A stretch of DNA of 64,000 nt, from assembly GCF_003788585.1 (NCBI RefSeq), contig NZ_AYKG01000023.1:62001-126000 (forward strand). Reading direction: 5' to 3'. Numbering within the stretch: position 1 is the stretch's first letter; every line of letters starts with the position of its first letter. The stretch is from Salinisphaera japonica YTM-1. GTDB taxonomy: Bacteria; Pseudomonadota; Gammaproteobacteria; Nevskiales; Salinisphaeraceae. Of the stretch, positions 30,261 through 49,275 are shown in pieces. Made by a program: the position numbers and the translations under genes. A model generated the notes under the pieces. The model ran no database searches. It was given only the letters and a program-made list of their open reading frames with translations, and was not told the DNA's origin.

Positions 30261-33200
30261 ATGTGGAAATGCCTGCCAACAGCCGCTGTGGTCGTGGCTG
30301 CCAGTTGCCCGGTCATGGCCCAGCCCTCGGCCGATACGGCAACGACCGGCGCGGCAGGTGCAACGGCATCACAGGGCGAAGGTCAGATCGTGCTGTTCGT
30401 GTTCGACGGCGATGCGCCCGTCTCAGGCGCGCGGCTGCTCGCTGACGGGCAATCGATTGGCAAGACCGGCGCCGACGGTGGGGCAGTGGCCAAGCTGGCC
30501 GCCGGTCAGCACAACCTCGTGCTCAGGCAGGGCAGTACCAACGCGCTTGATCTGGATGTAATCACCCGGGCAGACGAACAGGTGCGCATCATCGCCACCC
30601 TGCGTGACGGCCAGGCCCCGGAGCTCAATATCCAGGGGGGCGGTAGCGGCCCGGTACTGGCCGGCGCCACCGATGCCGGTGAAGACGCCGGCACGATCAA
30701 TGGCGTGGTGACCGGGCCCGGCGGCGGCCCACTATCCGGGGCAACCGTGCGCGTCCCGGCACGGGGTGTCTCAGCCGAAACCGGCGCCGACGGGCGTTTT
30801 GCCATCGACGTACCGCCGGGCACTTACAACCTGCGCGTCACACATCCGAATTACACCAGTGGCTCGGCGGCAGGGCTTCGCGTGGCGGCCAACGGCCAGG
30901 CCACGGCCAATGTCTCTCTTTCCGATTCGGGCATCAAACTGGCCGATTACACGGTCACCGCAGAGTATCTGGAAGGCAGTATCGCCTCGGAGATCGAGCT
31001 CCAGCGCGAATCCGACCAGATCACCAGCGTCATCGGCGCCGAGCAGATCGCCCGCACCGGCGATGCCAACGCGGCCGAAGCACTTCAACGGGTCAGCGGC
31101 CTGCTGATCGAGAACAACAAATACGCGGTCATCCGCGGCCAGCCGTATCGCTACACGCTGACCACCTTCAACGGCCTGCCGTTGCCCAGCCCCGATCCGA
31201 TCATCGAGGCCGTGCCGCTGAACCTGTTCACCGACACCATCCTGGCCAATATCCAGGTTCAGAAAAGCTATTCGGCCGACAAACCGGGTAACTTTGGTGG
31301 CGGCCTGGTGGCACTCAATACCATCAGCACCCCGGACGAGCCGTTTGCCACGTTCAAGATCAGCACCGGGGCCAACACGTTGGCGACCGGCGAACTGGGG
31401 TTGACCTACAAAGGCAGCAACGAAGATCCTCTCGGCCAGGACGGCGGCGAGCGTGAATTGCCGGGCGGCGTGCCGGATGGGGACACGCTTGCCGGATTCA
31501 CCCAGGCCGAGCGCCAGGCGGTCGGCCGCAGCTTCGATGATTTCTATATCGTCGAGGAGAAACAATTGCCGGCCGATATCGGCGCGGAGGCCGCCGCCGG
31601 CCGATCGTTTGATACCGACTACGGCACGTTCGGCGCGATCGTCACCGGCACCTATTCCCATGAGTATCGCCGCCAGATCGAGCAGGATAATTCCTATACC
31701 GCTTCGCAGGTCGACCCGCGGATCTCGTTTCTGGAAAACCGGACGGATCGTCAGATACAGCTCAGCGGGTTTCTCGCGCTGAGCGGCGAGTGGGATAACC
31801 ACGCGGTCAAGAGCAACACCCTGTTCGTGCGCGACTCACAGGATCGCACCCAGATCAGCGAAGGCTATGACCTGACCAGCGATGGCCGCGACGAGCGCCG
31901 TTTTCTGCTCGAATTCCAACGGCGTGATCTGTTTCTGACCCAGCTGCTGGGTGAGCACGACTTCAAATGGTTTCAGGTTGACTGGCGCGGTCAGCACTCA
32001 GAAACCGAGCGTGACCGGCCCGATCGCTCGAGCTATCGCTATCAGCGGCCGTTCGGCTCGGACCGGCTCCCGAGTTTCTATGCCGATACGGGCTTGGAGC
32101 GCGACTTCAACGAGGTCAACGGCCAGCTCGATAGCGGCAACGGCGACGTGACGATTCCCCTGCCAGATATCGGCGATTTCAAATGGGATCTGCGCGGCGG
32201 CGGCGATATCAACGTCGGCAGCCGGGACTCCAATACTCGACGCTTCCAGTTCATCCCTCAGAACGATGTACGCCTGGACCGCCATGTGATCGAGCAGATC
32301 ATCAACGACAACAAGATCCGAAACGACGGCTCGGGCGTGGCCTTCAACGAAGTGACACTCGCCTCGGACAGTTATACCGCGGATACCGACACCCGCGGCT
32401 ACTACATCGGCGGCCATATGGGGTTCGACGAGTGGATCGAAACCGATTTCGGCGTGCGAAACACCAACGCCAATTACGAGGTGATCACCGGCGGCGGAAC
32501 GGTCGGCGGCTTTGATCGTGAGTTCTGGCTACCGTCGGTCAACGTCACCGGCTCGATCACCGATGAGTTGCAGCTGCGGGCCAGCTACGGCCAGAGCGTG
32601 TCATACCCGCGTCTGGTCGAGCTTGCCGAAACCACGTTCTTCAATCCCGATACCGGCGAGCAGTTCATCGGCAACGCCCAACTGGCGCCCACCGAAATCG
32701 ACAGCTACGACCTGCGACTCGAGTTTTATCCCTCATCGACGGAAAACCTCAATCTCGGCGTGTTCTACAAGCAGCTCGAAAACTCCATCGAGCAACAGTT
32801 TCTGCCGCTGGCCAGCGGCACCAGTCTGACCAGTTTCACCAACGGCCAGAACGGCGAGATCCTGGGGCTTGAAACCGGTGGGCGCGTGAGCTTCGACCGG
32901 GTCGTGCGTGCCGGCTGGGTGCCGTTCGACTGGGTGGCCAACACTTATTTCCAGGCCAACTTCGCGTTGTCCAACTCCAGCGTTGAGCTTGATCCCGAGG
33001 CCAGCGGTGCAGCCACGAACCAGCGCCGGCCCTTGACTGGCCAGGCCGATACGACGCTGAACCTGCAGCTGGGCTACGACGGCGATACGCAGGACTTCAC
33101 GCTGCTCTATAACCGGGTCGGCTCGCGTCTGGATCAGGCGGGCACCAACAACCTGCCGGACATCTACCAGCAGCCGATCTCGTTCCTCGGGTTCACCTAC

Positions 33201-33386
33201 AGCCTGGATCTGCCCACGCGGCTGCCGTTCATCGGGCCGATTCCGACGCTGTCCGGGGCTCAGATCAAGTTCAAGGGCGCGAACCTGCTCAACGCCGAAC
33301 GTGAATATCGCCAGGGCGAGCGCCTGCAACGACGGGTCGAGTTCGGCCGCTCGTTCAGTGCGTCGCTACGCCTGAATCTTTTCTAG
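30261..33386 (+). CDS. TonB-dependent outer-membrane receptor with N-terminal PEGA-like and carboxypeptidase-regulatory domains
   Basis: A 1041-residue receptor. Signal peptide about residues 1-20, then a short beta-domain (residues 40-115, VLFVFDGDAPVSGARLLADG), then a carboxypeptidase-regulatory-like domain (about 145-220, GVVTGPGGGPLSGATVRV...PPGTYNLRVTHPNY). The plug follows at about 250-370 (ANAAEALQRVSGLLIENN), and the rest is a 22-strand-type barrel ending in RLNLF with the aromatic C-terminus needed for assembly. No TonB box can be named with certainty. The substrate is not readable. Receptors of this shape sit next to TonB2 clusters in other gammaproteobacteria, and the downstream lipoprotein is a likely partner. 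The ATG lies after an AT-rich regulatory gap. Confidence 0.9.
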   Translation: MWKCLPTAAVVVAASCPVMAQPSADTATTGAAGATASQGEGQIVLFVFDGDAPVSGARLLADGQSIGKTGADGGAVAKLAAGQHNLVLRQGSTNALDLDVITRADEQVRIIATLRDGQAPELNIQGGGSGPVLAGATDAGEDAGTINGVVTGPGGGPLSGATVRVPARGVSAETGADGRFAIDVPPGTYNLRVTHPNYTSGSAAGLRVAANGQATANVSLSDSGIKLADYTVTAEYLEGSIASEIELQRESDQITSVIGAEQIARTGDANAAEALQRVSGLLIENNKYAVIRGQPYRYTLTTFNGLPLPSPDPIIEAVPLNLFTDTILANIQVQKSYSADKPGNFGGGLVALNTISTPDEPFATFKISTGANTLATGELGLTYKGSNEDPLGQDGGERELPGGVPDGDTLAGFTQAERQAVGRSFDDFYIVEEKQLPADIGAEAAAGRSFDTDYGTFGAIVTGTYSHEYRRQIEQDNSYTASQVDPRISFLENRTDRQIQLSGFLALSGEWDNHAVKSNTLFVRDSQDRTQISEGYDLTSDGRDERRFLLEFQRRDLFLTQLLGEHDFKWFQVDWRGQHSETERDRPDRSSYRYQRPFGSDRLPSFYADTGLERDFNEVNGQLDSGNGDVTIPLPDIGDFKWDLRGGGDINVGSRDSNTRRFQFIPQNDVRLDRHVIEQIINDNKIRNDGSGVAFNEVTLASDSYTADTDTRGYYIGGHMGFDEWIETDFGVRNTNANYEVITGGGTVGGFDREFWLPSVNVTGSITDELQLRASYGQSVSYPRLVELAETTFFNPDTGEQFIGNAQLAPTEIDSYDLRLEFYPSSTENLNLGVFYKQLENSIEQQFLPLASGTSLTSFTNGQNGEILGLETGGRVSFDRVVRAGWVPFDWVANTYFQANFALSNSSVELDPEASGAATNQRRPLTGQADTTLNLQLGYDGDTQDFTLLYNRVGSRLDQAGTNNLPDIYQQPISFLGFTYSLDLPTRLPFIGPIPTLSGAQIKFKGANLLNAEREYRQGERLQRRVEFGRSFSASLRLNLF

Positions 33387-33462
33387 ACGTCATGCATCGC
33401 GCGCCGCCGATGTCGATTTTTACAAGCGGTGCAATGGAAAAATCATCAGAGAGAGCATTTCT

Positions 33463-35298
33463 ATGAACAAGCAACGAGTGGCCATGTTCCTGACGGCCGC
33501 CTCGGTGGCCCTCGTCGCCTCGGGCTGCGGCGGCGACGGGTCGGACATCATCGAAGGCGATACCAGCTTTTCCGGCGTCGGTGGTCAAGGCGGCCAGGGC
33601 GGCTCCGGCAGCGGTGGTTCCGGTGGCGGTGGCACGGACGGCGGCGGCGCCAACCCGGGCAATGATTCCATGGACGACGGGATGGATCCCGAAACCGGGA
33701 TGATGACCAGCGGTGTGGCCGTGCAGAACTATGGCCAGGGCGGCGGCTATCTTCAGGCCGGTTTCTTGTACAACCAGGATATCCACCCGCTGCGCGCTGA
33801 AATCGACAGCGATTTCGACGGCGACGGCGTCGGCGTGGGTGATGCGATCACCCCGGGCGACCCGGGTAACTGCCCCGAAGGCACGTCCAACACGAACGCC
33901 ACAGCCACGATCTTCGAGGGAACGCCGGCCTTTCCAGTCTGTGAGCTGAGCCAGAGCGCCGTGGGTGAGCCTGGCGATCAGGTCGAGACCATCAACCTCA
34001 CGAACGGATTCGTCTATTATCTGACCGACCCGCTTCGTATCGGTAACGGATTCCGGCAGAACGCCACGGCCGATTCTGTGGACAACATCACGCTGAATAT
34101 AGAAGGTGGCACACAGCTGTTCGCTGACCCCGGGATTGCCAACAGCGAAGGCGGGGCCTATCTGCGGATCACTCGTGGCTCGACGATCAATATCAACGGC
34201 ACACAGCAACGGCCGGTGATCATGAGTGCGGCACGCCTGGAAAACGGTCAGATCGTGGAGCCGGCCAACTTCACCGAGATCGGCCAGTGGGGCGGCCTGG
34301 TATTGGACGGCTATGCGCCGACCAACGCCGAAGGTGAGGACGGTGGTGCCGTGCCCAACGAGGCCATCAGTGAAGCCGCCCCGTCACAGCAATCGAATTA
34401 TTTCGGCGGTGGCGACACTGAAGATAGCAGCGGCGAAATCCATTATCTGGTCATCGGCGAAACCGGCGTGACCATCCGTCCGGATTCGGAAGTCCAGGGC
34501 ATCACGATGGAAGGCGTGGGTGCCGGCACCGAGATCGATCATGTCCAGGTTTTTGGCTCGGGCGATGACGGTATCGAGTTCTTTGGCGGCACGGTGACTA
34601 TGCAATATGTGCTGCTCAACGGCGCCGAAGACGACACGCTCGACATGGATCTGGGCTTCCAGGGCACGGTCAAGAACGTGATCGGTATCCAGGGCACCCA
34701 ACGTGGGAACCGCACCATCGAGGCCGATGGTAACGGCAACGGCTTCGACTTCGAGCCCAAGACCACGCCGAATATCGCCAACGCCTTGTTGCTCGGCGCC
34801 GGCGATCAGCAGGACGGCTCGGCCGGCATGCTGGCCCGCGAAGGCTTCGGCGGCGATCTGGAAAACACGGTCGTCACCGATCTGGCCTCGGTGACCAATC
34901 GTGATAACGGCGCGTATTCGCAGGGCTGCTTCATCAATACCGATGAGGTCGATCCGGATCTGCAGGCCGCGGGCCTGGCGTTCTTCTGCACGAACGACGC
35001 CGATGGCGGCGTGCCGGGCCAGGCTGACGTCGATCCGAACCTGTACCCGACCTGGTACAACGGCATGTTCCAGCAGGACAGCGGCTCGGGCGACACCATG
35101 GGCGACTTCCGCGGCATGGAAGACCCGGACATCAGCGTGGACGCCACGAGCTTCATCGTGACCACCACCGTCGAGCCGGTTACCGACGGCACGAATGACG
35201 GTATCCAGGCTGATGCCTACATGGGCGCGGTCGACCCGGAGACTGCCGACGGCGAGGAATGGTTCCGGGGCTGGATCGTCAGCGTGGCCGGCGAATAA
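33463..35298 (+). CDS. Large surface-type lipoprotein partner of the receptor, beta-helix-like
   Basis: A 611-residue lipoprotein. Signal peptide with lipobox LVASGC (Cys23), then a very Gly/Ser-rich flexible spacer (residues about 38-68), then a body rich in Asp, Gly, Asn with repeats such as EIDHVQVFGSGDDGIEFFGGTVTMQYV that suggest a parallel beta-helix. Asp-rich DSDFDGDGVGVGDAI could bind calcium. Few cysteines are present (CPEG, CELS, CFIN, FFCTN) and they could form disulphides. It follows the receptor by 76 bp without a terminator and ends with a strong one, so receptor and lipoprotein form one unit. Role inferred: surface capture of the receptor substrate. I do not recognise a named family. 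Confidence 0.8.
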   Translation: MNKQRVAMFLTAASVALVASGCGGDGSDIIEGDTSFSGVGGQGGQGGSGSGGSGGGGTDGGGANPGNDSMDDGMDPETGMMTSGVAVQNYGQGGGYLQAGFLYNQDIHPLRAEIDSDFDGDGVGVGDAITPGDPGNCPEGTSNTNATATIFEGTPAFPVCELSQSAVGEPGDQVETINLTNGFVYYLTDPLRIGNGFRQNATADSVDNITLNIEGGTQLFADPGIANSEGGAYLRITRGSTININGTQQRPVIMSAARLENGQIVEPANFTEIGQWGGLVLDGYAPTNAEGEDGGAVPNEAISEAAPSQQSNYFGGGDTEDSSGEIHYLVIGETGVTIRPDSEVQGITMEGVGAGTEIDHVQVFGSGDDGIEFFGGTVTMQYVLLNGAEDDTLDMDLGFQGTVKNVIGIQGTQRGNRTIEADGNGNGFDFEPKTTPNIANALLLGAGDQQDGSAGMLAREGFGGDLENTVVTDLASVTNRDNGAYSQGCFINTDEVDPDLQAAGLAFFCTNDADGGVPGQADVDPNLYPTWYNGMFQQDSGSGDTMGDFRGMEDPDISVDATSFIVTTTVEPVTDGTNDGIQADAYMGAVDPETADGEEWFRGWIVSVAGE

Positions 35299-35323
35299 AC
35301 CACCCCACGCTTAAGCCAGAACC

Positions 35324-35362
35324 AAAAAAGCGCCGATCGGCAAACCCGATCGGCGCTTTTTT
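35324..35362. terminator. Strong terminator after the lipoprotein gene
   Basis: A 17-bp perfect stem (35324-35340 with 35346-35362) around the loop CAAAC, with six-base A and T arms. Confidence 0.92.
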
Positions 35363-35369
35363 ATGATTC

Positions 35370-35648
35370 TTCGCAGATCACCGGGATTCGAGAATGAGAG
35401 TCCGCAAACAAACGCGAATGAAACGCAAATAAAGACCACAGGCCATACTGGTCACGGTCTATTCAAGCGAATCAAGTCCGTGATGAAGGCCCATGGAAGA
35501 CGTCTTTCGGGATAACTCAATTTCAGCGCGCACGCGGTCGAACTGAGCGAGTCGCTTCGATGCCACATCGCACGTTATTTGCGCTCATTTGCGTTCTTTG
35601 CGGACGAGTCGCCTGACCCGCGGGCGTCCCACTCATCTGCGATGAACC
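35370..35648 (-). repeat. MITE-like 280-bp element, copy A (inverted relative to copy B)
   Basis: The reverse complement of this stretch aligns along its whole length with 46146-46428. The best shared block is about 40 bp and includes CGTCCGCAAAGAACGCAAAT and AATAACGTGCGAT. Ends carry inverted motifs TTCGCAGAT (35370) and ATCTGCGATGAA (to 35646). Inside, GTCCGCAAA plus three ACGCAAAT-type words near one end face GTCCGCAAA-type words near the other, and AGACGTCTT marks the centre, so the element can fold as one long imperfect hairpin. No credible coding frame. It fills the 371-bp gap between the lipoprotein terminator and the barrel protein gene. Confidence 0.85.
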
Positions 35649-35669
35649 TTTTTTATGGCTCATCGCTGA

Positions 35670-36362
35670 TCAGCGATCTGGCGGCAGGATCGGGATCTGG
35701 AAGCCGATCTGCAGTAAATGACCGTCGATATCAAAATCATCGGCACGGCTATCCGAGCCCATTTCGACGTTCACATCGGCCTGGCGATAACGATATTCCG
35801 CGCGTAGCGATACACCCCAGGGATCGGGAATGCCGATATCGGTCAGTGCGATACGTGCCCCAGCACCCACGTCCCAGAACGAGCCGGTTTCACTGGGCTC
35901 GTCACCCAACCCGCCCACGCGATCGAAATCAAACTGGCTGAGCCCATAACTGGCCAGGCCATAAACGGGTAGACGATGCGGTAACGGAAAGACCAGCGCC
36001 GACAGCCCGTACTGAAAGATATTGACACTTTCGAAGACCGAGCCATCGATCGAGGCATCGCCGGCAAAATCGACGAACACTTCCCCCGTGAAATAAGACG
36101 TGAACGGCTTGCCGATGCTGATGGCCCCGCCCAGCGTATCGTCAAGGCTCGCCCCGTTGCTGTCGCCTAGCCAGGCCGCGCTGAGCATGGGGGCGATGTA
36201 GGGCCGTGCGTCATGGCCCAGGCTGTCAAAGGCGGGCTCGGCGGTTTGTTGATCAGCCGAGTCGACCCGGGATACTTCAGCCGCGGTCTGGGCCCAGCCG
36301 GTCTGTGTGATGGCCAGGCCGATGCCGGCCAGGGCAAAGAAATGCCCGGTTCTCATCTGCAT
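35670..36362 (-). CDS. Small outer-membrane beta-barrel protein
   Basis: A 230-residue protein with a signal peptide (MQMRTGHFFALAGIGLAITQTGWAQ) and alternating beta-strand pattern: ARPYIAPMLSAAWLG, GGAISIGKPFTSYFTGEVFVDFAG, YGLSALVFPL, VYGLASYGLSQFDF, FWDVGAGARIAL, GVSLRAEYRYRQADV, LLQIGFQIPI. This fits an eight-strand OmpA/Opa-type barrel. The ATG at 36362 has GGGGGAA six bases upstream and is preferred to the frame start at 36386. The function is unknown. Its stop lies 22 bp from the end of repeat copy A. Confidence 0.78.
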   Translation of the reverse strand: MQMRTGHFFALAGIGLAITQTGWAQTAAEVSRVDSADQQTAEPAFDSLGHDARPYIAPMLSAAWLGDSNGASLDDTLGGAISIGKPFTSYFTGEVFVDFAGDASIDGSVFESVNIFQYGLSALVFPLPHRLPVYGLASYGLSQFDFDRVGGLGDEPSETGSFWDVGAGARIALTDIGIPDPWGVSLRAEYRYRQADVNVEMGSDSRADDFDIDGHLLQIGFQIPILPPDR

Positions 36363-36857
36363 GAGTGGTTCCCCCAAATAACGCATACAAAAAACCCGGG
36401 CTTTTAGTGCCGCGTGCGACGTATGCCTGAAAGATTCATAAAAGCATCACGATTGAATCACCCGGATATGACAGGGCGATGGCGATACGCTCGTACCGGT
36501 CTTGCATCGCGACAGGCCGGGTGGGTCGATTCCGCACTGCCGTGTCACGCGCCGGTTGGCGTGTCCTGTCGATGGCCGCGCCAGCCGGCGTCTTAGACCA
36601 TCGTCGCGATCACCAACGCGGGTCGCATGATCGCGATATCGTGTGAAAGCGCAGCGCGACAGGGCTTGCGAGGCCGGCGTGACCTCACGATTGACTCGAT
36701 CGCTGCCGGATCGTCGGCGACACGTTGTTGCACTCACCGACCTTGGTTGTATAAAACCGAACGGTAGTTTCAAGGTGCCACGAGTTCGCTGCGGAACTCA
36801 TGGCGGGCTGGCGCGTGTCTCGCGCGAGCCGCGGCTTCGAATAGCACGAGGGAATGC
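36363..36857. promoter_or_regulatory. 495-bp divergent gap with promoter for the AraC gene
   Basis: No gene is supported. A good promoter toward the AraC gene is visible: TTGCAC at 36728-36733 and TATAAA at 36750-36755 with a 16-bp spacer, about 100 bp before the start codon. The part near 36380-36440 is AT-rich and probably holds the promoter of the barrel gene. Nothing else stands out. Confidence 0.5.
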
Positions 36858-37967
36858 ATGCGCGATTCCGAAGCGTTGCTGAGAATGATCTTTCAAGCAG
36901 CCCGAGCAGCCGGGGTGTCTCGTGACGCGTTGGCCGCAGAGCTGAACTGTCCGCCCGCGTTTCTGGACAACCCTGAAGGACGTCATCCACACGAGCTGCA
37001 GGCTTATTTCTGGGCCGCCCTGGAAAAGCTCACCGGGGACGTCGAGATCGGCTTGAGCCTGTGTCGACACCTGCCGGGCTTTGACGGTCATCGTCTTGAA
37101 TATGTTCTGCTCAGTAGCAGTACGCTACGCGAAGGGCTCATGTTCGCGCATCGGTATCGTCGTGTACTCAGCGATGCCATGGCGTTGCGTCTTGTGGATG
37201 GTTCCAGCGGCGAGCATCTAGAGATACAGGCGGCAGCATACGAGGGGCCACAGCGTCGCCACACCGATATCTGCGTGGTCTATGCGGTGCTGCGCGCGCT
37301 TCGAATCGTGCCACTTGCCGCACCGCCGTCCCGGGTGCATCTGGCGTTTGAGGCACGCCTGTCGCCGGCGGTCTACGAGACGTTGTTCGGCTGCCCCGTG
37401 GTCTTCGCAGCGCCGATCAATCGAATCGAGATACCGCCGGGCATGTTGGATGCGCCGCTGCCCCTGGCCGATCCGGATATCGCCGATCTGCATCGGCGCA
37501 TGGTGGCCAGCAAGATCGCGCCAATCGAGCGACAGGATATCGTCGATCATATTCGCTCGGCGCTCTACGCTCGCAGCCTGACGCATGAGGGCGTGAGCGC
37601 GACGTTGTCGGATCTCGCCGTTCTTCTCGGTGTTCCAGAGCGTCGTATACGCGATGCTCTGGGCGATAGCGGGACATCGTTTCGTAATCTGCTGACCGAG
37701 ATCCGAGCCTGTGTCGCGGAACATCTGCTGCGCGATACCAACGCACCGCTGGATTATGTCGCTCGGGCGGCAGGATTCATGGATCGCACGGCGCTGTCTC
37801 GCTCGTTCGGGGCGACCCGCGGATTGCCGCCTCTTCGATACCGCCGCCAGGCCCAGGCTCGGGCACGGCGTGCGGGTGCAAGAACACGCTTGCGAGACCC
37901 GGAAGACGTCCTGCAAGAGCTCAAGCGCAACGCCGACCGCCGGCTGATCACGGATCGGATCGAGTAG
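36858..37967 (+). CDS. AraC-family transcriptional regulator
   Basis: A 369-residue regulator. Residues about 15-200 match the Arabinose-bd-type sensor of OruR/ArgR-like AraC proteins (GDVEIGLSLCRHLPGFDGHRLEYVLLSSSTLREGL), and the C-terminal HTH region covers about 245-335, with SLTHEGVSATLSDLAVLLGVPERRIRDALGDSGTSFRNLL then PLDYVARAAGFMDRTALSRSFGATRGLPPLRYR. The first HTH and the linker helix agree with the family. It stands at the head of the envelope module, so it may control the genes to 46.1 kb; the inducer is not known. An arginine-rich C-terminal tail of about 30 residues is unusual. Confidence 0.85.
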   Translation: MRDSEALLRMIFQAARAAGVSRDALAAELNCPPAFLDNPEGRHPHELQAYFWAALEKLTGDVEIGLSLCRHLPGFDGHRLEYVLLSSSTLREGLMFAHRYRRVLSDAMALRLVDGSSGEHLEIQAAAYEGPQRRHTDICVVYAVLRALRIVPLAAPPSRVHLAFEARLSPAVYETLFGCPVVFAAPINRIEIPPGMLDAPLPLADPDIADLHRRMVASKIAPIERQDIVDHIRSALYARSLTHEGVSATLSDLAVLLGVPERRIRDALGDSGTSFRNLLTEIRACVAEHLLRDTNAPLDYVARAAGFMDRTALSRSFGATRGLPPLRYRRQAQARARRAGARTRLRDPEDVLQELKRNADRRLITDRIE

Positions 37968-38012
37968 CCGCCACAAGTCCGCTGCCAGGCACGGGGGCGT
38001 CCCATGAGCCAG

Positions 38013-38030
38013 CGCGACCGATCGGTCGCG
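38013..38030. promoter_or_regulatory. Perfect 18-bp palindrome downstream of the AraC gene
   Basis: CGCGACCGA followed directly by TCGGTCGCG, 46 bp past the AraC stop and 228 bp ahead of the large lipoprotein start. There is no loop or T run, so it is not a terminator; it could be an operator for a dimeric repressor. Confidence 0.4.
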
Positions 38031-38257
38031 AGAGCTGCTGTGAGCTATTTCCATGCTCGTGGCCCGTATTCCAACCAAAGTCGAATGCTGCCTTAAAAAA
38101 GCCTTCTAACAATTGCTTGCGATCAAATTTGACTCCAGTGACGTCGCGCGCTGCGGTGGCGTCACATCTCGCGGCGACAAACATGATTCAACAGGTGGGC
38201 GGGCATGGCGCATGTCCGGTTGGCATCGTGTTTTTACCGAGATGGGGGATCGGATCG

Positions 38258-41200
38258 ATGGGTGATCTTTTTAGGACGAGGCTGCCTGGTGACCAGGCAG
38301 GCGTTTCAAAACCTTTCCGCAGGTCTGCGCAAGCGTTGCGCGTCTGTATCGTGGGGGCTGTTGTGGCCACCACGTTTACCGCCTGCGATTCGGGCGATGG
38401 CGGGGACAACGGCGGCGTTGGCCAGCCGGACAGCGGCGCCGCCGTCGGCGCGATCGATGCCAACGCACCGGCCGGTCTGGCGTTCTCCTACCCGATCGAT
38501 GGCCAGACCGATGTGTATCCGGGTACCACGATCGTCTTTGCGTTTTCGGGCGAAGCCGAGGGCGATGTAGCGCTGATCGATACCGAAAGTGGCCAGGCGT
38601 TACCGGCCGCCGTCGTCGCGCAGGGCAACGGGATCTACAACATTCGGCCTGCGGACTCCGATGCCCGAATGGCGCCGGCGACTACCTATGCCGTTGTGGC
38701 CCGTGGGCGTATCGGCGATGACGACAACACGGCGTTTGAAGACGGTGAGAGCCTGTTCGCCTTCACCACGGCGCCGGCCATCGGCGCCTCTGTAGCCGAT
38801 GACTTCACGCTGGTGAACTTCCCCAGTGGTAGCGACGCCGGGTTTCCGATCGCGGGTACGGCCTTGCCGTTCACCCAGTTCAACACCGTGCGTGCGCGCT
38901 TCTCGCAGGCAGTCGATGTGTCACACGTCAAACTCTGCCGCGGGACTGAAACGCTGGGCCAGGACGGTTGCAGCGTGGCTGTTACCGGTGCCGACGGGCG
39001 AAACGTTGCCGGTCGCCTGAATGTGGCCGGGCGTGATCTGGTTTTTGATCCGGGCACTATCGCGCCGGACCCCGCCAACCAGAACGCCGACCAGTACGCG
39101 AACGACGATCTGGCCGCGGATACACGCTATAGCGTGGATTTCGGCGACGAATTCGTCTCCACCTCGGGTGCTTCGTTGTCGGGCACGGCCTCGTTTTCGA
39201 TCCGCCCGCTTGCCATCAATACGGGGGATCGGGTCGATGTCGTCCAGCGACTGCGTATCGGCAATATTGGTGATGACGATGATGACACCAGCCCGGTGAC
39301 CGGGCGTACGGCCAACAACATCGAACTGGCCAGCCAACTTATTGGTCGTTATGACCTGGCCGCAGTGCCGTCGCCGGAGCAGGGCGGTCTGCAGGTTCGT
39401 CTGGCTGCCTTCAACGGGCCGCGTTTTGGCGGCACGATTCCGACGTTGCTGCCACGCGGGCAGAAATTTCTGCTCAAGGATTTCAACCTGGCGCTGGGCA
39501 GTCGTCTGGGCGATGACGGCACGTTCGATGAAGCGGTTGTGGACACCCCGGCCGATCTCGACGGCATGCAGATCCAGTTCGCCAACGACTCGGATGTCTA
39601 TTTGCTGGCCAATGATCTATCGAATATCGGTAGCCCGGCCCGTGTAACGCAGCGCCTGGACTTGAATATCTTCGGCCAGGTTGCTCCCAACAGCCCGATC
39701 GCCGCGCTGGCCAATGGGGTGGTCAACCAGACCGCCTTGAATATCCTGGCCTCAGGCGTTGCGGTGCCCCAGGAAAACGGCGACATCAGTCTGGTGCTGT
39801 ACGGCAGTTTTCCGATCTCGGTCAACGCAGACGGGCGCGCGGCGGTCAACTTCGAGCTGGAGCTGACATTGCCGGCAAGCACCGACGATCAGCCCCGGAT
39901 CATGGCTGACATGACCAACCCGCGGATCACGGCACAGTATCCCAGCGCGTGCACCTACACGTTCAACGTGGCAGACACCGATAACGAGCAGCTGTTTGAA
40001 AGCGGCGATATCGTTGGCGGTTTGACCGGTACAACCACGCTGTCGGCCACTGAATCGAATTGTATTTCGGTGTTGAACGAGCGCCGCGTGGTGTCGGCCG
40101 GGGAGCAGGAAACTGACTTCCTCGACGACTTCGACCCGGACGCCACCTACAACGCCACGCGCCCCGTAGCCGACAGCCTGCCGCTGGGGGCCTCGCCGTC
40201 GCTGCTGTTCTCCGAGCCTGTGGATCCTGCATCCCTGGTTGGCAACGTCACGCTCGTGGCCGATGAAAACAGCAGCCCCGTGACCGTACGCATGCACGCC
40301 GAGGGCGCGAGTGTGGTTATTGATCCCGTTCGTCGTCTGGCACCGGATACCGCCTACACGCTGCGTGTGAACTCACGCGTGACCGACATGAGCGGCAACC
40401 CGGTGGCACTGGCCGGCGATTTTCCGGACAGCGCGATCGTTTCCAGCGTTAAGTTCACGACCGAGCCGATGGTCATCCCCTTCGACGAGGCGGGTGATCC
40501 CGTCGCGGTGAGTGATGACGTCAACGAGGCGGTTTTCCAGACCGCGCCTTTCGTCACCGCCATCTCGGTGGGCCTTGCCTGTCCGCTGATCCCCGAGAGC
40601 GGCGACTACCTCGACGGTGGCGACGTAGCCGGCCGGTGCGTCGGCGATACCCCCAGCGAGCAGGCCGTGACGATCCCGGCGGTCATACCGTTCTTCCCGG
40701 TTGCGGTCGAGCAGGCAGCCAGCCCGACACGGCGTTATGACGTGTTCTCTCAGCCGGTCAACGCGCCGATCGAGGTGTATTTCAGCAAGCCCGTGCAGAA
40801 AGCCACGATATCGCTGGCCGATGGATGCTTGTCGGGCGGTAGTGGCAATGACAACGCGGATGCCACGATCGCGATCCAGCGCATGGACGGCTCGGGCAAC
40901 TGTGAACGGGCCGTTCCCGGCCAGTTGAGCACCCTGGGTAACGGGGCGCTGACCACTGGCTTCGCGTTTCAGCCGGCACGGCCGTTCGAGCGCGGCGCGC
41001 GTTACTGGGTCGTGATCTGTGGCAGCGCATCGGGCGATGACGACGGGCAGGAGAACGACTGCACGAGCGGGCGCACCATCATGGGCCAGAGCGGCCTTGC
41101 CCTGAATACCGACCCGCTGACGGGTACCGGCACGCGACGCGACGGCCAGGCCAATCAGCCCGGTCTGAACACGGACGATGTGCCGGGGGGTGGCGACGAC

Positions 41201-42205
41201 GTCCCCGGAACCGTGGTCGTGAGCTGCTTCGTCTCGAACGAAGAGGCCGGCGGGCCGGATATCCGCATGCCGTTCAACGGCGTGCCTGCTACGCCCGACT
41301 ACGCGACCACCGTGCGTGCCCTGCCCAAGACCGATACCAATGGCAACGGCTTTCTCGACAATACGCCGACCGCTGAGAGCCAGATCGAGGATCCAACGGC
41401 CAAGGTGATAAGCGGCGTGAATAGCGGCAATGACCGCGGGCCGAGCACCACAGTGTTCAACGATGCCTACGGGCGAGAGCGGGTTCAGGTGGCCAACGCA
41501 GTCTATGCCCGAACATTGAACAGCTTTGCGCAGTTCGGCTTCGGCTCAGAAGTCGCACCCGCCGAAGCCGGGTTCCTGGGCGGCGAGCGACCCATTGTTC
41601 TAGGGCCGGCCTTAAGCGGCTCGGACTGTAACGTCAACAATATAAGGCTGGAGAACGATACGCCGGTCGTCTCAAACGGCTCGCCGAACTCGTGTATCCC
41701 GATTGATCTGCCGCCGGGTGGTTTGTTGACGCTTACGAGCCTGCCCGCGCTGGGTGCAACGCCCACGGGTCGGTTGTTGCTGCGCTTCCCCAATCGGGTG
41801 GTCGACGGCCAGGCAACCGGCCAGCCCCAGCGTGGCTACATCGTGCCGAAATGCAGCGGGACCTTCCCGGCTTCTGGCGAGGTCGAGAGCTTCGATTACG
41901 ACTACAGCCCGTGTTTTGTTGCCGATCTGCAATTGACGCTTAACGCCCCGGACACTGTGTTTTCAGCCGGCCAGGGCCTGGGGATCGAGCAACAGGACAT
42001 CAGCCTTCAGGTGTTTGGGCCGGTGGCGTTCGAGCAGGACGGCCGGCTGGTGATCGCCACGCGTAACTCGAGGGCCTTCGCTATCACCGCGAAACTGGGC
42101 TTTGCGGGCAATACGGGCCCGCTGGACGCGCCGATACCGGCGGGCTATCAGACGCTCCAGCTGATTGGCCCGGCTCTGCACGGCGGACTGGCTTTCCCAC
42201 AGTGA
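38258..42205 (+). CDS. Giant lipoprotein with bacterial Ig-like (Big_5) domains
   Basis: A 1315-residue exported protein. The start at 38258 (MGDLFRTRLPGD) has GGGGGAT about ten bases upstream and gives a signal peptide ending in FTAC (Cys43), a fair lipobox. Big_5-like domains are visible near residues 65-170 (FSYPIDGQTDVYPGTTIVFAFSGEA), 635-740 (LPLGASPSLLFSEPVDPASLVGNVTL ... LAPDTAYTLRVNSRVTDMSGNPV) and 825 onward (NAPIEVYFSKPVQKATISLADG). Between and after them are Asp/Gly-rich segments with scattered cysteines. Such proteins are surface or periplasmic adhesin-like scaffolds. The gene is followed by a terminator and the PraB-like gene. Substrate or partner is unknown; I would not name a function beyond envelope lipoprotein. 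Confidence 0.75.
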   Translation: MGDLFRTRLPGDQAGVSKPFRRSAQALRVCIVGAVVATTFTACDSGDGGDNGGVGQPDSGAAVGAIDANAPAGLAFSYPIDGQTDVYPGTTIVFAFSGEAEGDVALIDTESGQALPAAVVAQGNGIYNIRPADSDARMAPATTYAVVARGRIGDDDNTAFEDGESLFAFTTAPAIGASVADDFTLVNFPSGSDAGFPIAGTALPFTQFNTVRARFSQAVDVSHVKLCRGTETLGQDGCSVAVTGADGRNVAGRLNVAGRDLVFDPGTIAPDPANQNADQYANDDLAADTRYSVDFGDEFVSTSGASLSGTASFSIRPLAINTGDRVDVVQRLRIGNIGDDDDDTSPVTGRTANNIELASQLIGRYDLAAVPSPEQGGLQVRLAAFNGPRFGGTIPTLLPRGQKFLLKDFNLALGSRLGDDGTFDEAVVDTPADLDGMQIQFANDSDVYLLANDLSNIGSPARVTQRLDLNIFGQVAPNSPIAALANGVVNQTALNILASGVAVPQENGDISLVLYGSFPISVNADGRAAVNFELELTLPASTDDQPRIMADMTNPRITAQYPSACTYTFNVADTDNEQLFESGDIVGGLTGTTTLSATESNCISVLNERRVVSAGEQETDFLDDFDPDATYNATRPVADSLPLGASPSLLFSEPVDPASLVGNVTLVADENSSPVTVRMHAEGASVVIDPVRRLAPDTAYTLRVNSRVTDMSGNPVALAGDFPDSAIVSSVKFTTEPMVIPFDEAGDPVAVSDDVNEAVFQTAPFVTAISVGLACPLIPESGDYLDGGDVAGRCVGDTPSEQAVTIPAVIPFFPVAVEQAASPTRRYDVFSQPVNAPIEVYFSKPVQKATISLADGCLSGGSGNDNADATIAIQRMDGSGNCERAVPGQLSTLGNGALTTGFAFQPARPFERGARYWVVICGSASGDDDGQENDCTSGRTIMGQSGLALNTDPLTGTGTRRDGQANQPGLNTDDVPGGGDDVPGTVVVSCFVSNEEAGGPDIRMPFNGVPATPDYATTVRALPKTDTNGNGFLDNTPTAESQIEDPTAKVISGVNSGNDRGPSTTVFNDAYGRERVQVANAVYARTLNSFAQFGFGSEVAPAEAGFLGGERPIVLGPALSGSDCNVNNIRLENDTPVVSNGSPNSCIPIDLPPGGLLTLTSLPALGATPTGRLLLRFPNRVVDGQATGQPQRGYIVPKCSGTFPASGEVESFDYDYSPCFVADLQLTLNAPDTVFSAGQGLGIEQQDISLQVFGPVAFEQDGRLVIATRNSRAFAITAKLGFAGNTGPLDAPIPAGYQTLQLIGPALHGGLAFPQ

Positions 42206-42218
42206 TCGCATGATTTGA

Positions 42219-42256
42219 CACTTGCGCGCCCGTGGGCGGGCAAGTGCCGATTTTTT
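42219..42256 (+). terminator. Terminator after the giant lipoprotein gene
   Basis: CACTTGC (42219-42225) pairs with GCAAGTG (42240-42246), with an inner CGCCC/GGGCG stem, followed by a T run at 42251-42256. Confidence 0.65.
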
Positions 42257-42309
42257 CAAACCGTTGCAAGCGCAACATCCGACAAACCAACTCCTAGGGA
42301 GAAGACAAG

Positions 42310-42828
42310 ATGAACAACATCATCAAGAAATCGCTGATTGGCGGCGCCATGGTTCTCGGTAGCGTGGGTATCGCCCAGGCCGCGACCGTGACACCGGGCG
42401 TGGGCACCTATTCCTTCGCCGGCCCGGCCACGCTGTCGGCGTTCGGTATCAACCCGATGTGCACGCTCGAGCTGACCGGTGACGTGCAGAAGAACGGCAA
42501 CGGCGGCGTGACCGTCACCGTGACTGACGGCGATGCCACCGGTGGCTTCGCCTGTGGCTTCGTGGGCTTCGAGTTCCCGTGGACCGCGGAAGTCTCGGCC
42601 GACCAGATCCCGGCCGACCCGACGCAATCCGTGCCGATCATGTTCGACAACGTGGTCGTGACCGCCATCGGCAGCAACTGCACGGATGAGCCGACCTCGC
42701 TCCCGGCCATCTTCTCGAACGGTGATCCGATCAGCGAGCCGTCCTCGTTCAGCTTCAATGCCAATATCGGCAGCTGTGCGGTCAACGGCACCGTCTCGGC
42801 ACAAAGTGATGTGAACGTCACGCAGTAA
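42310..42828 (+). CDS. Small secreted protein resembling PraB (alkane-growth-associated)
   Basis: A 172-residue protein with a clear signal peptide (IGGAMVLGSVGIAQAA). The mature part is all-beta in outlook, with four cysteines in NPMCTLEL, GFACGFVG, GSNCTDEP and IGSCAVNG. The pattern of VTPGVGTYSFAGPATLSAFG followed by CTLELTGDV and a WTAEVSA stretch recalls PraB, the extracellular protein first described as an activator of alkane growth in Pseudomonas. This resemblance is from memory and moderate. AGGGAGAAG at 42296-42304 is a strong ribosome-binding site, so high expression is likely. A terminator follows. Confidence 0.6.
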   Translation: MNNIIKKSLIGGAMVLGSVGIAQAATVTPGVGTYSFAGPATLSAFGINPMCTLELTGDVQKNGNGGVTVTVTDGDATGGFACGFVGFEFPWTAEVSADQIPADPTQSVPIMFDNVVVTAIGSNCTDEPTSLPAIFSNGDPISEPSSFSFNANIGSCAVNGTVSAQSDVNVTQ

Positions 42829-42846
42829 TACGCACTGTTGTGTCAG

Positions 42847-42877
42847 CGCCCGGGCGATATCGTCCGGGCGTTTTTTT
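42847..42877 (+). terminator. Terminator after the PraB-like gene
   Basis: CGCCCGG (42847-42853) pairs with CCGGGCG (42864-42870), then seven T's; the 10-base middle GCGATATCGT can also pair internally. Confidence 0.85.
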
Positions 42878-42968
42878 GTCTGGCGCGAGCGCCGGGTATC
42901 GCGCGTTCTCTTCGTCACACGAGCTTGTCAGGGGCCGTGTTATCGGCCAGCTTGTAGGCCGTATTCCA

Positions 42969-43505
42969 ATGGACGATGCCGTGTTTGACGATATCTCGTG
43001 GGCCTGGTGGGCCGGCCAGGGTTTCGGGCTCGCGGCCCTGGTGCTTTGTGTGCTCGGGTTCGCGAGCCGGCACGACGAACGTCTTTTTCTGCGTTTGTTG
43101 TTGGCGAATGTGGCTTTCACGCTTCAATTCGCGCTGTTGGGGAGCTGGGTCGCGGCCGGTATCACCGCACTCATCGTGCTCCGTATCCAGCTTGTGCGTC
43201 GTTACAAGGGCTCCTGGCTCGTCATGTCAGGGATGCTTGTTGCCACGCTTGTCGTCGCGCTGCCCGGGCTCGGCTCGTTGCATGCGCTGTGGCCGCTGGC
43301 GGCCGGCCTCATCGGAACGCTGGCCATGTTCATGTTCGAAGGCATCCCCATGCGCTGGTTGCTGGCGGTGGCGGCGTTCTGCTGGGTGATGGCGAATCTT
43401 CTGGTCGGGTCGATCGGTGGCACCGCTGCAGAAATACTTATTCTGGTCACCAATCTCGTCACTATCGGGCGGTTGATGCGGGCTCGTCGTTCGCGTGTGT
43501 CGTAA
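42969..43505 (+). CDS. YgjV-like inner-membrane protein
   Basis: A 178-residue protein with about six hydrophobic helices: FGLAALVLCVLGFASRHD, LFLRLLLANVAFTLQFALLG, AGITALIVLRIQLVRRYKG, LVMSGMLVATLVVALPGLG, IGTLAMFMFEGIPMRWLL, FCWVMANLLVGSIGG, and EILILVTNLVTIGRLM. The N-VAFTLQFALLG-and-IGTLAMFMFEGIPMRW pattern fits the Imp-YgjV family, whose function is unknown. The start at 42969 gives the expected N-terminus; the longer frame begins inside a terminator. Its neighbours are envelope genes, but it has no visible functional link to them. Confidence 0.7.
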   Translation: MDDAVFDDISWAWWAGQGFGLAALVLCVLGFASRHDERLFLRLLLANVAFTLQFALLGSWVAAGITALIVLRIQLVRRYKGSWLVMSGMLVATLVVALPGLGSLHALWPLAAGLIGTLAMFMFEGIPMRWLLAVAAFCWVMANLLVGSIGGTAAEILILVTNLVTIGRLMRARRSRVS

Positions 43506-43941
43506 CTTGCCGAGAACCGGCGTCGCAGGCCCCGAATCGACCTCTAAATGATGCGGAGAAAACATCACAAGAAGAGCATAAAAGACAAAATAAGCTGGTA
43601 TGCGCCGAAAGTCGAAAGACCCTTTTTAACAATTTTATATCAATAACTTAGGCTTTTTTTTGACCCGATTGCCGGTTTTTTTTGGGGTCGAGTCATCCCG
43701 TTATCGCTAATTTATGGTTCAAAGAGAGTCATAGGGACTGTTGGGGAGTCGCAAGAGCGCCATGCGGCGCGTTATCCCGCTGCTGATGAGAAACGTCATG
43801 GCGTACGGAGACGGACTCATACGACACCGCATAGACCCTGAAGCCAGCCGCGGCACTTGTGTGTTGTACGCGAGCGTCGTGGCATTACCGGTAGAACGAA
43901 TTGATTCGTTAATAACGACAAACGTCGATAGGGGAAAACCG
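43506..43941. promoter_or_regulatory. 436-bp gap before the OmpW-like gene, with palindrome
   Basis: No gene is supported. 43590-43690 is AT-rich and holds several long T runs; it probably carries the ompW-like promoter. A perfect palindrome AACGAAT-TG-ATTCGTT lies at 43895-43910, 31 bp ahead of the start codon and just before the AGGGG ribosome-binding site (43930-43934). It looks like an operator. Confidence 0.5.
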
Positions 43942-44874
43942 ATGGGGATCAAGAGCGCGCCGCTGCGGGTCAATACCGGCATATTTGCCGCAGCGTTGAT
44001 CGGTATGGGAGGTCTGCTGGCAAACGGCACGGCTGTAGCACAGGGACAGATGCGCGATATGGAAGCTACGGGCGGCGATACGCTCATCGGCGACGCCATC
44101 AGCTTCGTCGGCAATAATCTTTATTTTCGTTTCGGTGCCGGTTACCTCGATTATTACGGCACGTCGTCCGAACTCAAGGTCGAGGATGCGAAAGGTCTGG
44201 CCGCGCAGGCATTCGGCCCGGGCGAATCCAGCCTGGACGGCACGGGCACATCGCTCAACGACAAGATGTTCCCTTCGGGCACGCTGGGGCTCTATATCCC
44301 CTGGACCAATCATCACCTGGCCACCGAGGTCACCATCTCCGCGCCCATCAAACTCGACTTCCAGGTCGACGGCGCCGCCGCAACATCGTCACTGGCGCCC
44401 GACGCGCTGGGCGGCAACGGCCCGGGCAACACGATCAATCCGGGCGTGCCCACGCTTAACCGAAATATCGGCCAGCTCAAGGCCTTGCCGCCGAACATCA
44501 GCTTCGTCTATCGACCGTTCGTGAATACTCGTATCCAGCCGTATATCGGCGTGGGGGCGATGTATCTCTATACCTACGACACCGACATCAACGAGCCGCT
44601 GCTGAACTCGGTCAACGAGCCCACGCTGTATCTGTCCAAACCCTGGGCCTGTACCGGCAAGCTCGGCTTCGATATCAATATCACCGAAAAGTTTTTCGTC
44701 GGCGCCGAGGCTCAGTACATCGGCTGTGCCGAGGTCAAGGCCGAGCTCAACGATATCTCGATTCGAGCGGATAATATCTCTGACACGTTCGGACCGGTGG
44801 ATGTGGGCAAGGTCAGCTCGACCAACAGCTTCGAGGCCGTACTTTACCAGGTCTCAATGGGCGTTCGGTTCTAG
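43942..44874 (+). CDS. OmpW-family outer-membrane channel
   Basis: A 310-residue OmpW-type barrel. Signal peptide to about residue 34 (LANGTAVAQG). The body has the OmpW pattern NLYFRFGAGYLDYYG ... LPPNISFVYRPFVNTRIQPYIGVGAMYLYTYD ... GKLGFDINITEKFFVGAEAQYI and ends MGVRF with the terminal Phe. Proteins of this family admit small hydrophobic compounds across the outer membrane and include AlkL, the alkane channel. Length is greater than E. coli OmpW (about 190 mature residues) owing to an extended loop with GDGAAA-type residues around 120-160. Substrate inferred, not shown. Confidence 0.82.
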   Translation: MGIKSAPLRVNTGIFAAALIGMGGLLANGTAVAQGQMRDMEATGGDTLIGDAISFVGNNLYFRFGAGYLDYYGTSSELKVEDAKGLAAQAFGPGESSLDGTGTSLNDKMFPSGTLGLYIPWTNHHLATEVTISAPIKLDFQVDGAAATSSLAPDALGGNGPGNTINPGVPTLNRNIGQLKALPPNISFVYRPFVNTRIQPYIGVGAMYLYTYDTDINEPLLNSVNEPTLYLSKPWACTGKLGFDINITEKFFVGAEAQYIGCAEVKAELNDISIRADNISDTFGPVDVGKVSSTNSFEAVLYQVSMGVRF

Positions 44875-44907
44875 ACAGCCGTTTCAAGACCTTGGCCGGG
44901 CCAGTAC

Positions 44908-44921
44908 AAAACGTACGTTTT
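44908..44921. promoter_or_regulatory. Perfect 14-bp palindrome between OmpW-like and lipoprotein genes
   Basis: AAAACGTACGTTTT lies 33 bp after the OmpW-like stop and 90 bp before the lipoprotein start. It may be an operator. The lack of a loop and of a T run on the far side argues against a terminator. Confidence 0.4.
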
Positions 44922-45010
44922 AAAGTCTCCCTTTGCATGACGACGTTCAGGACTCGGCCCTTTTAATTTCCGCAACACGCCGCGGCGGGTTGCGAGCGGG
45001 GAACAGCATC

Positions 45011-46090
45011 ATGAAATCATCACGTTTTACCCGATGGGTCACGACCGGGGCGATCGCCGGTCTGACCGGGTTGGCACTCTCGGGCTGCGGTTTGATCTAC
45101 AAGCCCGTGGGCCATACGCTCAATCACTACAGTCTCGACGAGATCGTGCCCTATGCGTTGGGCAGTGGTGATCTTGACCTGGCTGCCTGTGGCACCGGCA
45201 TGGGCCTGAATCAGCTGGGCGGCAGCTTCTCACGCGTGATAAACCGCCCGGCGCGCTTGATGATCGTGACCAACACCACCGCCTCGTTCTGTTCGGAAAT
45301 GCAGGCACAGAAATATCACCTGTTGGTACAGCGCAACCTGCATAACGGCAACACGGATGTCGCCCAGGACAACCGTATCGTGGCCCAGCGCTGGGAGCGG
45401 CTGACCGCACTTCGTCGTTATCAGGTCTACAACGACACGGTCGAAGCCTATGGAGAAATCGGCGCGGAAAAATGCCCGAATCTATCCAACGAGCTGGGCA
45501 CCGATCAGGACGAGTTCGTCTATCTGACCGGCGTGCTGGTGGGCGTGCAGGGCCTGCTCAACGATATTCAGGCGAATTCATCGGTGGGTATCCCGCAGAA
45601 CGTGGCCGCCAAGGCCGGGCGTGCATCTGAGTGCATCGACAACATCAAGTGGTGGGGCGTGCCCAAGGCCCTGGAAGCCGTGGTGTGGCTGTCGGTGCCG
45701 GGTAATGCGCCGCAAGACGCGGATCCATGGGCCCAGCTTCGCCAGGCCTCAGCCCAGGGCAAGCAGGCCGGCATCGCCTTGCCAGCCATGCTTTACGCGC
45801 TGGCCGCCTATGGCCAGTCAGACACGGCCAGGGAGAAAGAAGCCATCAAGATGGTGGCCGATATCTACAACGCCTATGACCCGGGCCAGAAGCCGGACGA
45901 TCGCGACGAGGACAACGCTGCGGCCCAGTATCTGCTCTTGAATCAGATTGCCTACAACGAAGCGCTTTATCTGTCGGATCGAATCTGGATCGACGATGAA
46001 GGGCATCGTACGCCGCTCGTGGCGCTGGGCAGCTTCCCGGGTGAGGGTGGAGCCACCCAGGAGATCGATGCCGATAGTTATCTGAACTGA
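45011..46090 (+). CDS. Lipoprotein of unknown function closing the envelope module
   Basis: A 359-residue lipoprotein. Signal peptide with lipobox LSGC (Cys26). The remainder is mainly helical, with segments such as VPYALGSGDLDLAACGTGMGLNQLGGSF, QAQKYHLLVQRNLHNGNTDVAQDNRIVAQRWERLTALRRYQVYNDTV and WWGVPKALEAVVWLSVPG. There are three or four cysteines in the mature part. It resembles TRAP-associated TatT-like lipoproteins in outline, but I cannot assign it. It lies directly after the OmpW-like gene and ends with a terminator, next to repeat copy B. Outer-membrane anchored partner of the OmpW-like channel is a plausible inference. Confidence 0.75.
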   Translation: MKSSRFTRWVTTGAIAGLTGLALSGCGLIYKPVGHTLNHYSLDEIVPYALGSGDLDLAACGTGMGLNQLGGSFSRVINRPARLMIVTNTTASFCSEMQAQKYHLLVQRNLHNGNTDVAQDNRIVAQRWERLTALRRYQVYNDTVEAYGEIGAEKCPNLSNELGTDQDEFVYLTGVLVGVQGLLNDIQANSSVGIPQNVAAKAGRASECIDNIKWWGVPKALEAVVWLSVPGNAPQDADPWAQLRQASAQGKQAGIALPAMLYALAAYGQSDTAREKEAIKMVADIYNAYDPGQKPDDRDEDNAAAQYLLLNQIAYNEALYLSDRIWIDDEGHRTPLVALGSFPGEGGATQEIDADSYLN

Positions 46091-46111
46091 CCGGCTCTCG
46101 GTGCGCAAACG

Positions 46112-46145
46112 AAAAAGGCCCGCTGAAGATCAGCGGGCCTTTTTT
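46112..46145. terminator. Terminator after the envelope module lipoprotein
   Basis: AAAAAGGCCCGCTGA (46112-46126), loop AGA, TCAGCGGGCCTTTTT (46130-46144). Its T-arm touches the left end of repeat copy B. Confidence 0.92.
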
Positions 46146-46428
46146 GGTTCATCGCAGATTAGCGCCACGCCACGCCGCGCAGGCGAATCGTCCGCAAAGA
46201 ACGCAAATGAGCGCAAATAACGTGCGATATGGCATCGAAGTGACTCGCGCAGCCCGAACGCGTGCGCGCTGAACGTAGGTTATCCCGAAAGACGTCTTTC
46301 ATGGGCCTTCATCGCCAACTTGATTCGCAGGAATAGCGCGTAATCACCATGGCCTGTGGTCTTTATTTGCGTTTTATTCGCGTTTATTTGCGAACTGTCA
46401 TTCTTGAATCCCGGTAATCTGCGAAGGA
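46146..46428 (+). repeat. MITE-like 280-bp element, copy B
   Basis: The sequence runs from GGTTCATCGCAGAT to ATCTGCGAAGGA and aligns with the reverse complement of 35370-35648 along its length, by eye more than four fifths identical. It lies 40 bp from the clpB stop. Left-half words GTCCGCAAAGAACGCAAAT and GAGCGCAAATAA pair with right-half words TTATTTGCG, TTATTCGCG and TTTATTTGCGAAC. The centre holds the perfect palindrome GAAAGACGTCTTTC (46287-46300). No coding frame is credible; no transposase gene is nearby. Confidence 0.85.
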
Positions 46429-46467
46429 CTTTTCCTGGCGTCGTTATATACGGCTTGATCAGCGCTA

Positions 46468-49059
<2,592 letters not shown>

Positions 49060-49118
49060 AGTGTTCAACCCTTGTCAGATACGGCCATGACGCCGCACGT
49101 GATCTATCGATGTTCTAT

Positions 49119-49146
49119 TAATAGGACCATGCGCAAACAATTCAAC
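49119..49146 (-). promoter_or_regulatory. Possible heat-shock (sigma-32-like) promoter of clpB
   Basis: On the minus strand GTTGAAT, 13 bases, TCCTATTA resembles CTTGAAA-N13-CCCCATNT. It lies 60-90 bp upstream of the clpB start. The match is partial, but heat-shock control of clpB is usual. Confidence 0.45.
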
Positions 49147-49275
49147 CACTGTTTGAAACATCGTCTAAAAGCCCGGCGCGACACGCTGCTACACTGAGCG
49201 GTCTGGCGTCTCGGTTGCCGCGTACCCGCGCACCAACGCCGCTATTCTTTGCGCTGTTTTTTATCGAGGCTGTTC

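Follow-up and report, generated by a model that had tools for sequence, protein, structure and literature searches.

Bacterial miniature inverted-repeat transposable elements (MITEs) are known that share their ends with an insertion sequence of the same genome (PMC6382973). Among them, MITEAba12 is reported to be short and gene-free, with the ends of ISAba12 and 9-bp duplications of its target (PMC6382973). For the ISL3 family, ISAeme19 is described as an insertion sequence of 1304 bp with 19-bp imperfect inverted repeats and 8-bp direct repeats (PMC12554700), and the main text of a MITE review does not mention ISL3 (PMC10969869). Here we present a gene-less repeat of about 280 bp from Salinisphaera japonica YTM-1, two inverted copies of which lie in a stretch of 64,000 nucleotides (contig NZ_AYKG01000023.1, positions 62,001 to 126,000), called the window below. 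With a probability of about 0.9, we read the repeat as a MITE with ISL3-type ends that is inserted mostly at the T-tracts of intrinsic terminators, and the two window copies as old, independent insertions. We take it for an ISL3-type MITE because its ends match those of an ISL3 element, its target duplications are of 8 bp and its sites lie at terminator T-tracts. As far as sequence comparison can tell, the multiple copies, the matching ends, the 8-bp duplications, the association with terminators and the repeat-free junctions of relatives together argue for this reading.

Class C (IIC) group II introns are ribozyme retroelements. They are reported to insert downstream of Rho-independent terminators (PMC3522654), and insertion behind terminators is what the present element shares with them, while unlike them it is a DNA transposon with an 8-bp duplication. 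In Enterococcus faecium, an ISL3-family element has been reported at one end of DNA inserted into an rRNA-operon rho-independent terminator, with an 8-bp duplication, by a mechanism that the authors call uncharacterised; this case differs in concerning one site, ACTAGAAA, which lies near the middle of the terminator rather than in its T-tract (PMC11702846). Intergenic palindromes are also the targets of insertion sequences directed to repetitive extragenic palindromic (REP) sequences, which differ in that their sites are REPs, and ISL3 is absent from the main text of that paper (PMC1525189). The likeness to MITEAba12 and other bacterial MITEs lies in short length, lack of a gene, the ends of a co-resident insertion sequence and target duplications; the differences are the ISL3 family and the usual site, a terminator T-tract, whereas for MITEAba12 the authors found the sites to have no nucleotide pattern beyond A/T richness (PMC6382973). 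With ISL3-family insertion sequences such as ISAeme19 the link is an ISL3-family transposase, which the window element does not itself carry, and the chromosomal sites reported for ISAeme19 are the genes mgrB and kdsD, not terminators (PMC12554700). In the literature that we searched we found no ISL3 clade or MITE with a terminator preference, a weak negative since few subscription journals were covered, and reports on MITEs in Salinisphaera were not among the matches listed. As a MITE the element is ordinary, and its possible homing on terminators is the interesting part.

The inverted pair is real and far beyond chance. Copy 2 (46146-46428, plus strand, 283 bp, GGTTCATCGCAGATTAG...GGTAATCTGCGAAGGA) is 87% identical to the reverse complement of copy 1 (35365-35648, minus strand, 284 bp, GGTTCATCGCAGATGAG...GATCTGCGAAGAATC on the minus strand, with terminal inverted repeats), and when 46146-46428 was used as the query against the whole genome the partner was recovered at E 3.3e-93 with 87% identity over query positions 1-281. 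Without gaps, the inverted arms 35369-35622 and 46173-46426 are 87% complementary over 254 nt, and the further segments 35623-35648 and 46146-46171 are 85% complementary over 26 nt. An earlier note, made from the letters alone, had described such an inverted repeat with a shared block of about 40 bp, and both statements hold, the longest block identical in the two copies being 41 bp; its bounds for the right copy also stand, while the left copy is a little wider, beginning at 35365 rather than 35370. Copy 1 lies between two exact copies of the 8-bp duplication TTTTTTAT (35357-35364 and 35649-35656), the left one of which is the T-tract of an intrinsic terminator whose hairpin (35330-35356, plus strand, -24.0 kcal/mol) stands directly before it, 3' of the gene at 33463-35298. 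Copy 2 is flanked by CCTTTTTT and CTTTTCCT, an exact duplication being no longer present, and on its left the hairpin of another terminator (46117-46139, plus strand, -19.8 kcal/mol), 3' of the gene at 44933-46090, is followed by six T at 46140-46145 that adjoin the element.

Confinement of the copies to this locus, which the earlier note had named as a refutation, does not apply. We label the source genome G000, other genomes of the genus by further G numbers, and contigs by C numbers. With 40 of 61 first-look candidates scored, at least eight copies are found in the source genome, of 192-284 bp and dispersed over several contigs. Of the 18 matches, seven are 258-283 bp long, two at C41 together form a single copy that has lost an internal part, and nine measure 24-51 bp and on reading belong for the most part to another repeat; the six other long copies have 83-88% identity to the query. 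A ninth copy lies in G009, and no long match was found in 12 further genomes of the genus, at 12 candidates scored per genome throughout this genus search; the plasmid and phage collections gave no match at E 1e-5. The aligned copies share their ends, GGTTCATCGCAGATTAGCGGGA on one side and GGTTCTTCGCAGATCACCGGGA (reversed) on the other, with T- or A-rich stretches directly outside. Exact 8-bp target duplications, all of them T-tracts, are present at three of the eight copies: TTTTTTAT at the copy on C34, ATAAAAAA (on the element strand) at copy 1 of the window, and TTTTTTGT at C3_24096, provided that the end of the element is placed one G inside the consensus. Thus the repeat is short, carries no transposase gene, has shared terminal inverted repeats and 8-bp duplications, and occurs in several dispersed copies, as MITEs do.

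A candidate helper is present in the same genome. Searching with the MITE end sequence at up to 3 mismatches gave 36 places, against 6 for a control pattern, and between two such ends, which point towards each other over 1310 bp (C45:48361-49670), lies an intact gene for a 401-aa protein (C45:48462-49664). The protein is an ISL3-family transposase (PF01610, E 2.2e-65, 221.3 bits against a cut-off of 23; NF033550, 304.8 bits against a cut-off of 180), whose nearest named label, taken from product names in plasmid records, is ISAeme19 at 55% protein identity. The right end of this element, both ends of the ISL3 element in G010 and the right end of that in G009 share 18-19 of 22 positions with the MITE ends, and the left end in G000, compared by eye, shares 19-20; five shuffled 64-kb windows give no more than 16 of 22, and the ends of a distant ISL3 element in G008 reach 9-11 of 22. 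The earlier note had likened the repeat to a MITE that depends on an enzyme from elsewhere, and an intact ISL3 element with matching ends in the same genome agrees well with this; judged from the ends, its transposase may be what moves the MITE. A relative with 80% protein identity is represented in G009 by its final 120 coding bases, which stand at the broken ends of five contigs, a pattern which fits a recently multiplied insertion sequence. For the transposase, 122 plasmid records match at E 1e-80 and none of the phage records does so at E 1e-30; its clade occurs in Pseudomonas, Halomonas, Vibrio and Aeromonas, among others. At C4:41863-41878 a single right end that resembles the one of the ISL3 element, apparently a remnant, adjoins a terminator hairpin, and open reading frames (ORFs) near the intact element, within C45:41000-51000, resemble by eye broken IS3-type transposase genes.

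As for the sites, seven of the eight copies in the source genome directly adjoin an oriented intrinsic-terminator hairpin of -12.4 to -24.0 kcal/mol with its T-tract on the right strand, the hairpin being left of the element in five copies and right of it in two. In the counts below a terminator means a hairpin with a T-tract on the matching strand, and the controls are oriented likewise unless stated. Elsewhere in the window, terminators contain 23 of the 115 octamers with at least six of T or of A (one-sided Fisher 1.9e-4 against seven of eight copies, and 6.7e-4 against seven of nine when the copy in G009 is included) and 17 of the 194 octamers with at least seven A/T (p 1e-6). An unoriented control limited to intergenic homopolymer-like octamers gave 8 of 30 (p 0.003), the ORF caller behind it being crude and assigning 93% of the window to coding sequence. 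Of the five right ends of the autonomous relative in G009, four adjoin a terminator on the visible side, and the fifth adjoins a run of eight T, its other side being on another contig.

The same analysis was extended to the clade of the 401-aa transposase, for which 232 relatives were confirmed and 80 loci kept. These yielded 39 deduplicated insertions with both ends readable and flanking octamers differing at no more than 2 of 8 positions, the remaining 41 loci being excluded for ends missing or unrecognised, octamers differing at more than 2 of 8, N in the flank, or a flank duplicating another locus. All 39 octamers have 6-8 A/T, and 20 of the 39 insertions lie in oriented terminators (an earlier rule that accepted a hairpin on either side and a T-tract on any strand gave 23 and is superseded). 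Of the clade octamers with at least seven A/T, 19 of 36 are in terminators, compared with 56 of 1500 controls sampled out of 2262 drawn from the same contigs (odds ratio 29, p 5e-17); of those with at least six of T or of A, 20 of 30 are, compared with 37 of 332 controls (odds ratio 16, p 3e-11). This last comparison, in which the T-tracts are matched, favours a preference that goes beyond base composition. In G008, the distant ISL3 element (41% protein identity) is listed at eight places of a single-contig genome, and the six copies that were read have the exact 8-bp duplications actgaatc, catatcct, cttttctc, attttttt, cgttgtaa and cgtagatc, none of the six being in a terminator by the oriented rule. 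From this one comparison, because the distant element has none of six, the terminator preference seems to belong to the present clade and not to the whole ISL3 family.

The junctions of relatives bear on the independence of the two window copies. G010 and G011 are the only other genomes of the genus with the gene at 33463-35298, and in both it is followed by the beta-barrel gene with a terminator (seen by eye) and no MITE between. On the right, the gene of 44933-46090 is followed in G001 by a terminator (by eye) and then by clpB, again with no MITE; G001 is the one genome that bears on this junction, and G003, G004 and G009 have a different gene beside clpB. The two junctions are thus observed in different relatives, no fetched contig spanning both, and each has the same gene order without the repeat, a result that the earlier note had itself named as a refutation. 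Copy 1 keeps an exact duplication of its own, and both junctions occur in relatives without a MITE. The most fitting reading is therefore that the two copies inserted independently and that the assembled segment has been neither turned nor moved by them.

Several points weigh against the whole picture of an ISL3-ended MITE at terminators. Five of the eight copies have no exact duplication, the C41 copy adjoins no terminator, and neither does the copy in G009 on its left, the one side with a kept end. In the relatives, which are diverged, we found no exact pre-insertion site. The sole full-length ISL3 copy found in the source genome lacks a terminator hairpin on both sides, and it is flanked by two different octamers. 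In the clade, 19 of the 39 insertions are outside terminators by the rule, and in G008 only one of the six octamers has at least seven A/T, a different A/T preference, so that this element is not a T-tract-matched control. Furthermore, when copy 2 was trimmed by 24 nt on both sides and compared with 82 ISL3 loci, this interior gave no match at E 0.01, so that the MITE is tied to the family by its ends only. We considered and rejected an origin by internal deletion of an ISL3 element on the same ground; since the interior matches none of the 82 loci compared, the body of the MITE probably came from some other source, and its arms resemble a repeat of the genome's own, as described below.

In the mechanism that we propose, an ISL3-clade transposase would act in trans, recognise the ends of about 22 bp and move the MITE; insertion would proceed through a staggered 8-bp cut at an A/T-rich site, duplicated afterwards, and the preferred site would be the T-tract behind an intrinsic-terminator hairpin. 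Duplication of the T-tract would leave hairpin and T-tract intact on one side, so that the host gene should keep its terminator, and because the two stay together an insertion should do little harm; the terminator is accordingly predicted to remain functional. Whether the clade and its MITEs actually home on terminators, by way of the hairpin with its T-tract or of a halted transcription complex and beyond A/T richness, leaving the terminator working through the duplication, we regard as close to an even question. It is also possible, though we would not call it probable, that the transposase inserts at any A/T octamer and that the insertions persist where they are least harmful, that is, behind terminators. 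Such survivorship would account for the A/T content of at least 6 of 8 in all 39 duplications, for the 19 insertions elsewhere and for the reported presence of a clade member, ISAeme19, inside genes (PMC12554700). It does less well with the enrichment, which persists when the controls are intergenic homopolymer-like octamers (22 of 30 clade octamers against 32 of 157 controls, by the unoriented rule and the crude ORF caller), and with the G008 element, which under the same selection has none of six insertions in a terminator, although it is a partial control with octamers less A/T-rich. The preference may reflect targeting and not only survival. If the targeting is true, it would be a safe-site strategy, by which elements tend to land behind genes without breaking genes or terminators, and the clade would be to DNA transposons what the class C introns are to group II introns.

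A structured RNA or regulatory repeat, multiplied in some other way and with ISL3-like ends by coincidence, we hold to be very unlikely. It is true that the copies are predicted to fold as nested helices, ends pairing with ends and arms with arms, and that decamers of the arms recur in another intergenic repeat. Inside the MITE two arms face each other, each of two to three units of about 10 bases (CGCAAATGAG, CGCAAATAAC and similar); in copy 2 the inner left arm (46190-46220, plus strand) reads GTC and then the units CGCAAAGAA, CGCAAATGAG and CGCAAATAA, which resemble the genome-wide decamer repeat, and is predicted to pair with the inner right arm (46362-46395, minus strand; TTTATTTGCGTTTTATTCGCGTTTATTTGCGAAC on the plus strand). 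However, one of the 79 predicted pairs is changed on both sides and the covariation term is unfavourable, no Rfam family is matched at the gathering threshold by 33000-48000 or by eight loci submitted, and duplications with shared ends are the traces left by transposition. Because only this one pair has changed on both sides, the nested fold is the symmetry of the MITE, with no sign of a conserved RNA.

The other repeat just mentioned consists of tandem CGCRAATRAA and CGCAGATNAA, two to three per arm, at many intergenic places, its arms inverted, about 100-250 bp apart by eye and often clustered (10 of 20 fetched loci viewed); examples are L234 (C16:22300-23900), L235, L236 and L248. The inner arms of the MITE are built of similar units. 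The 18-mer GCRAATRAACGCRAATRA is found at 138 places with at most one mismatch, the MITE arms included, against 12 for a control, and occurs exactly in one of 149 other genomes sampled from the phylum. Short matches to the decamer repeat are present in six other genomes of the genus and a few of the order; the loci submitted have no Rfam match, and the decamer strings were not found in the literature searched.

The earlier note had taken the pair to bracket an 11-kb envelope-gene segment that it could flip or mobilise. That recombination between the copies flips this segment, or that a transposase moves it by its outer ends, deserves next to no credence: inverted copies with a 41-bp identical block could in principle serve RecA, and MITE-bounded composites whose interiors can be inverted are reported among Tn3-derived elements (PMC13367494), but copy 1 keeps a matching TTTTTTAT on both sides, whereas recombination between copies 1 and 2 would have separated these octamers, the octamers at the two outer edges mismatch (TTTTTTAT and CTTTTCCT), unlike those of a composite transposon, each junction is unaltered in a relative, and the remaining copies sit singly on other contigs. 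With this false lead removed, nothing suggests that the repeats make the segment a switch.

The gene content given in the earlier note holds in most parts. Pfam identifies an outer membrane beta-barrel protein (35670-36386), an AraC-type regulator (36858-37967), an Ig-like (Big_5) protein of 1362 aa (38117-42205), YgjV (42840-43505) and OmpW (43741-44874), while the proteins at 42310-42828 and 44933-46090 have no Pfam match at E 0.01, so that their names, PraB-like and lipoprotein, rest on the earlier note. Among the ORFs of at least 90 aa in 32000-50000, one overlaps a window copy (35579-35941, plus strand) and crosses the element edge. In G011, the region 36493-42916 with the AraC regulator, Ig-like and PraB-like genes is missing between the beta-barrel and YgjV genes, and the edges of this absence do not fall at the repeats. 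In addition, the OmpW-lipoprotein stretch (44025-46088) has a second copy in the source genome at C11:39062-40165, with 80% DNA identity; a copy of the C11 type with the same sequence behind it is present also in G010, and a similar one in G011.

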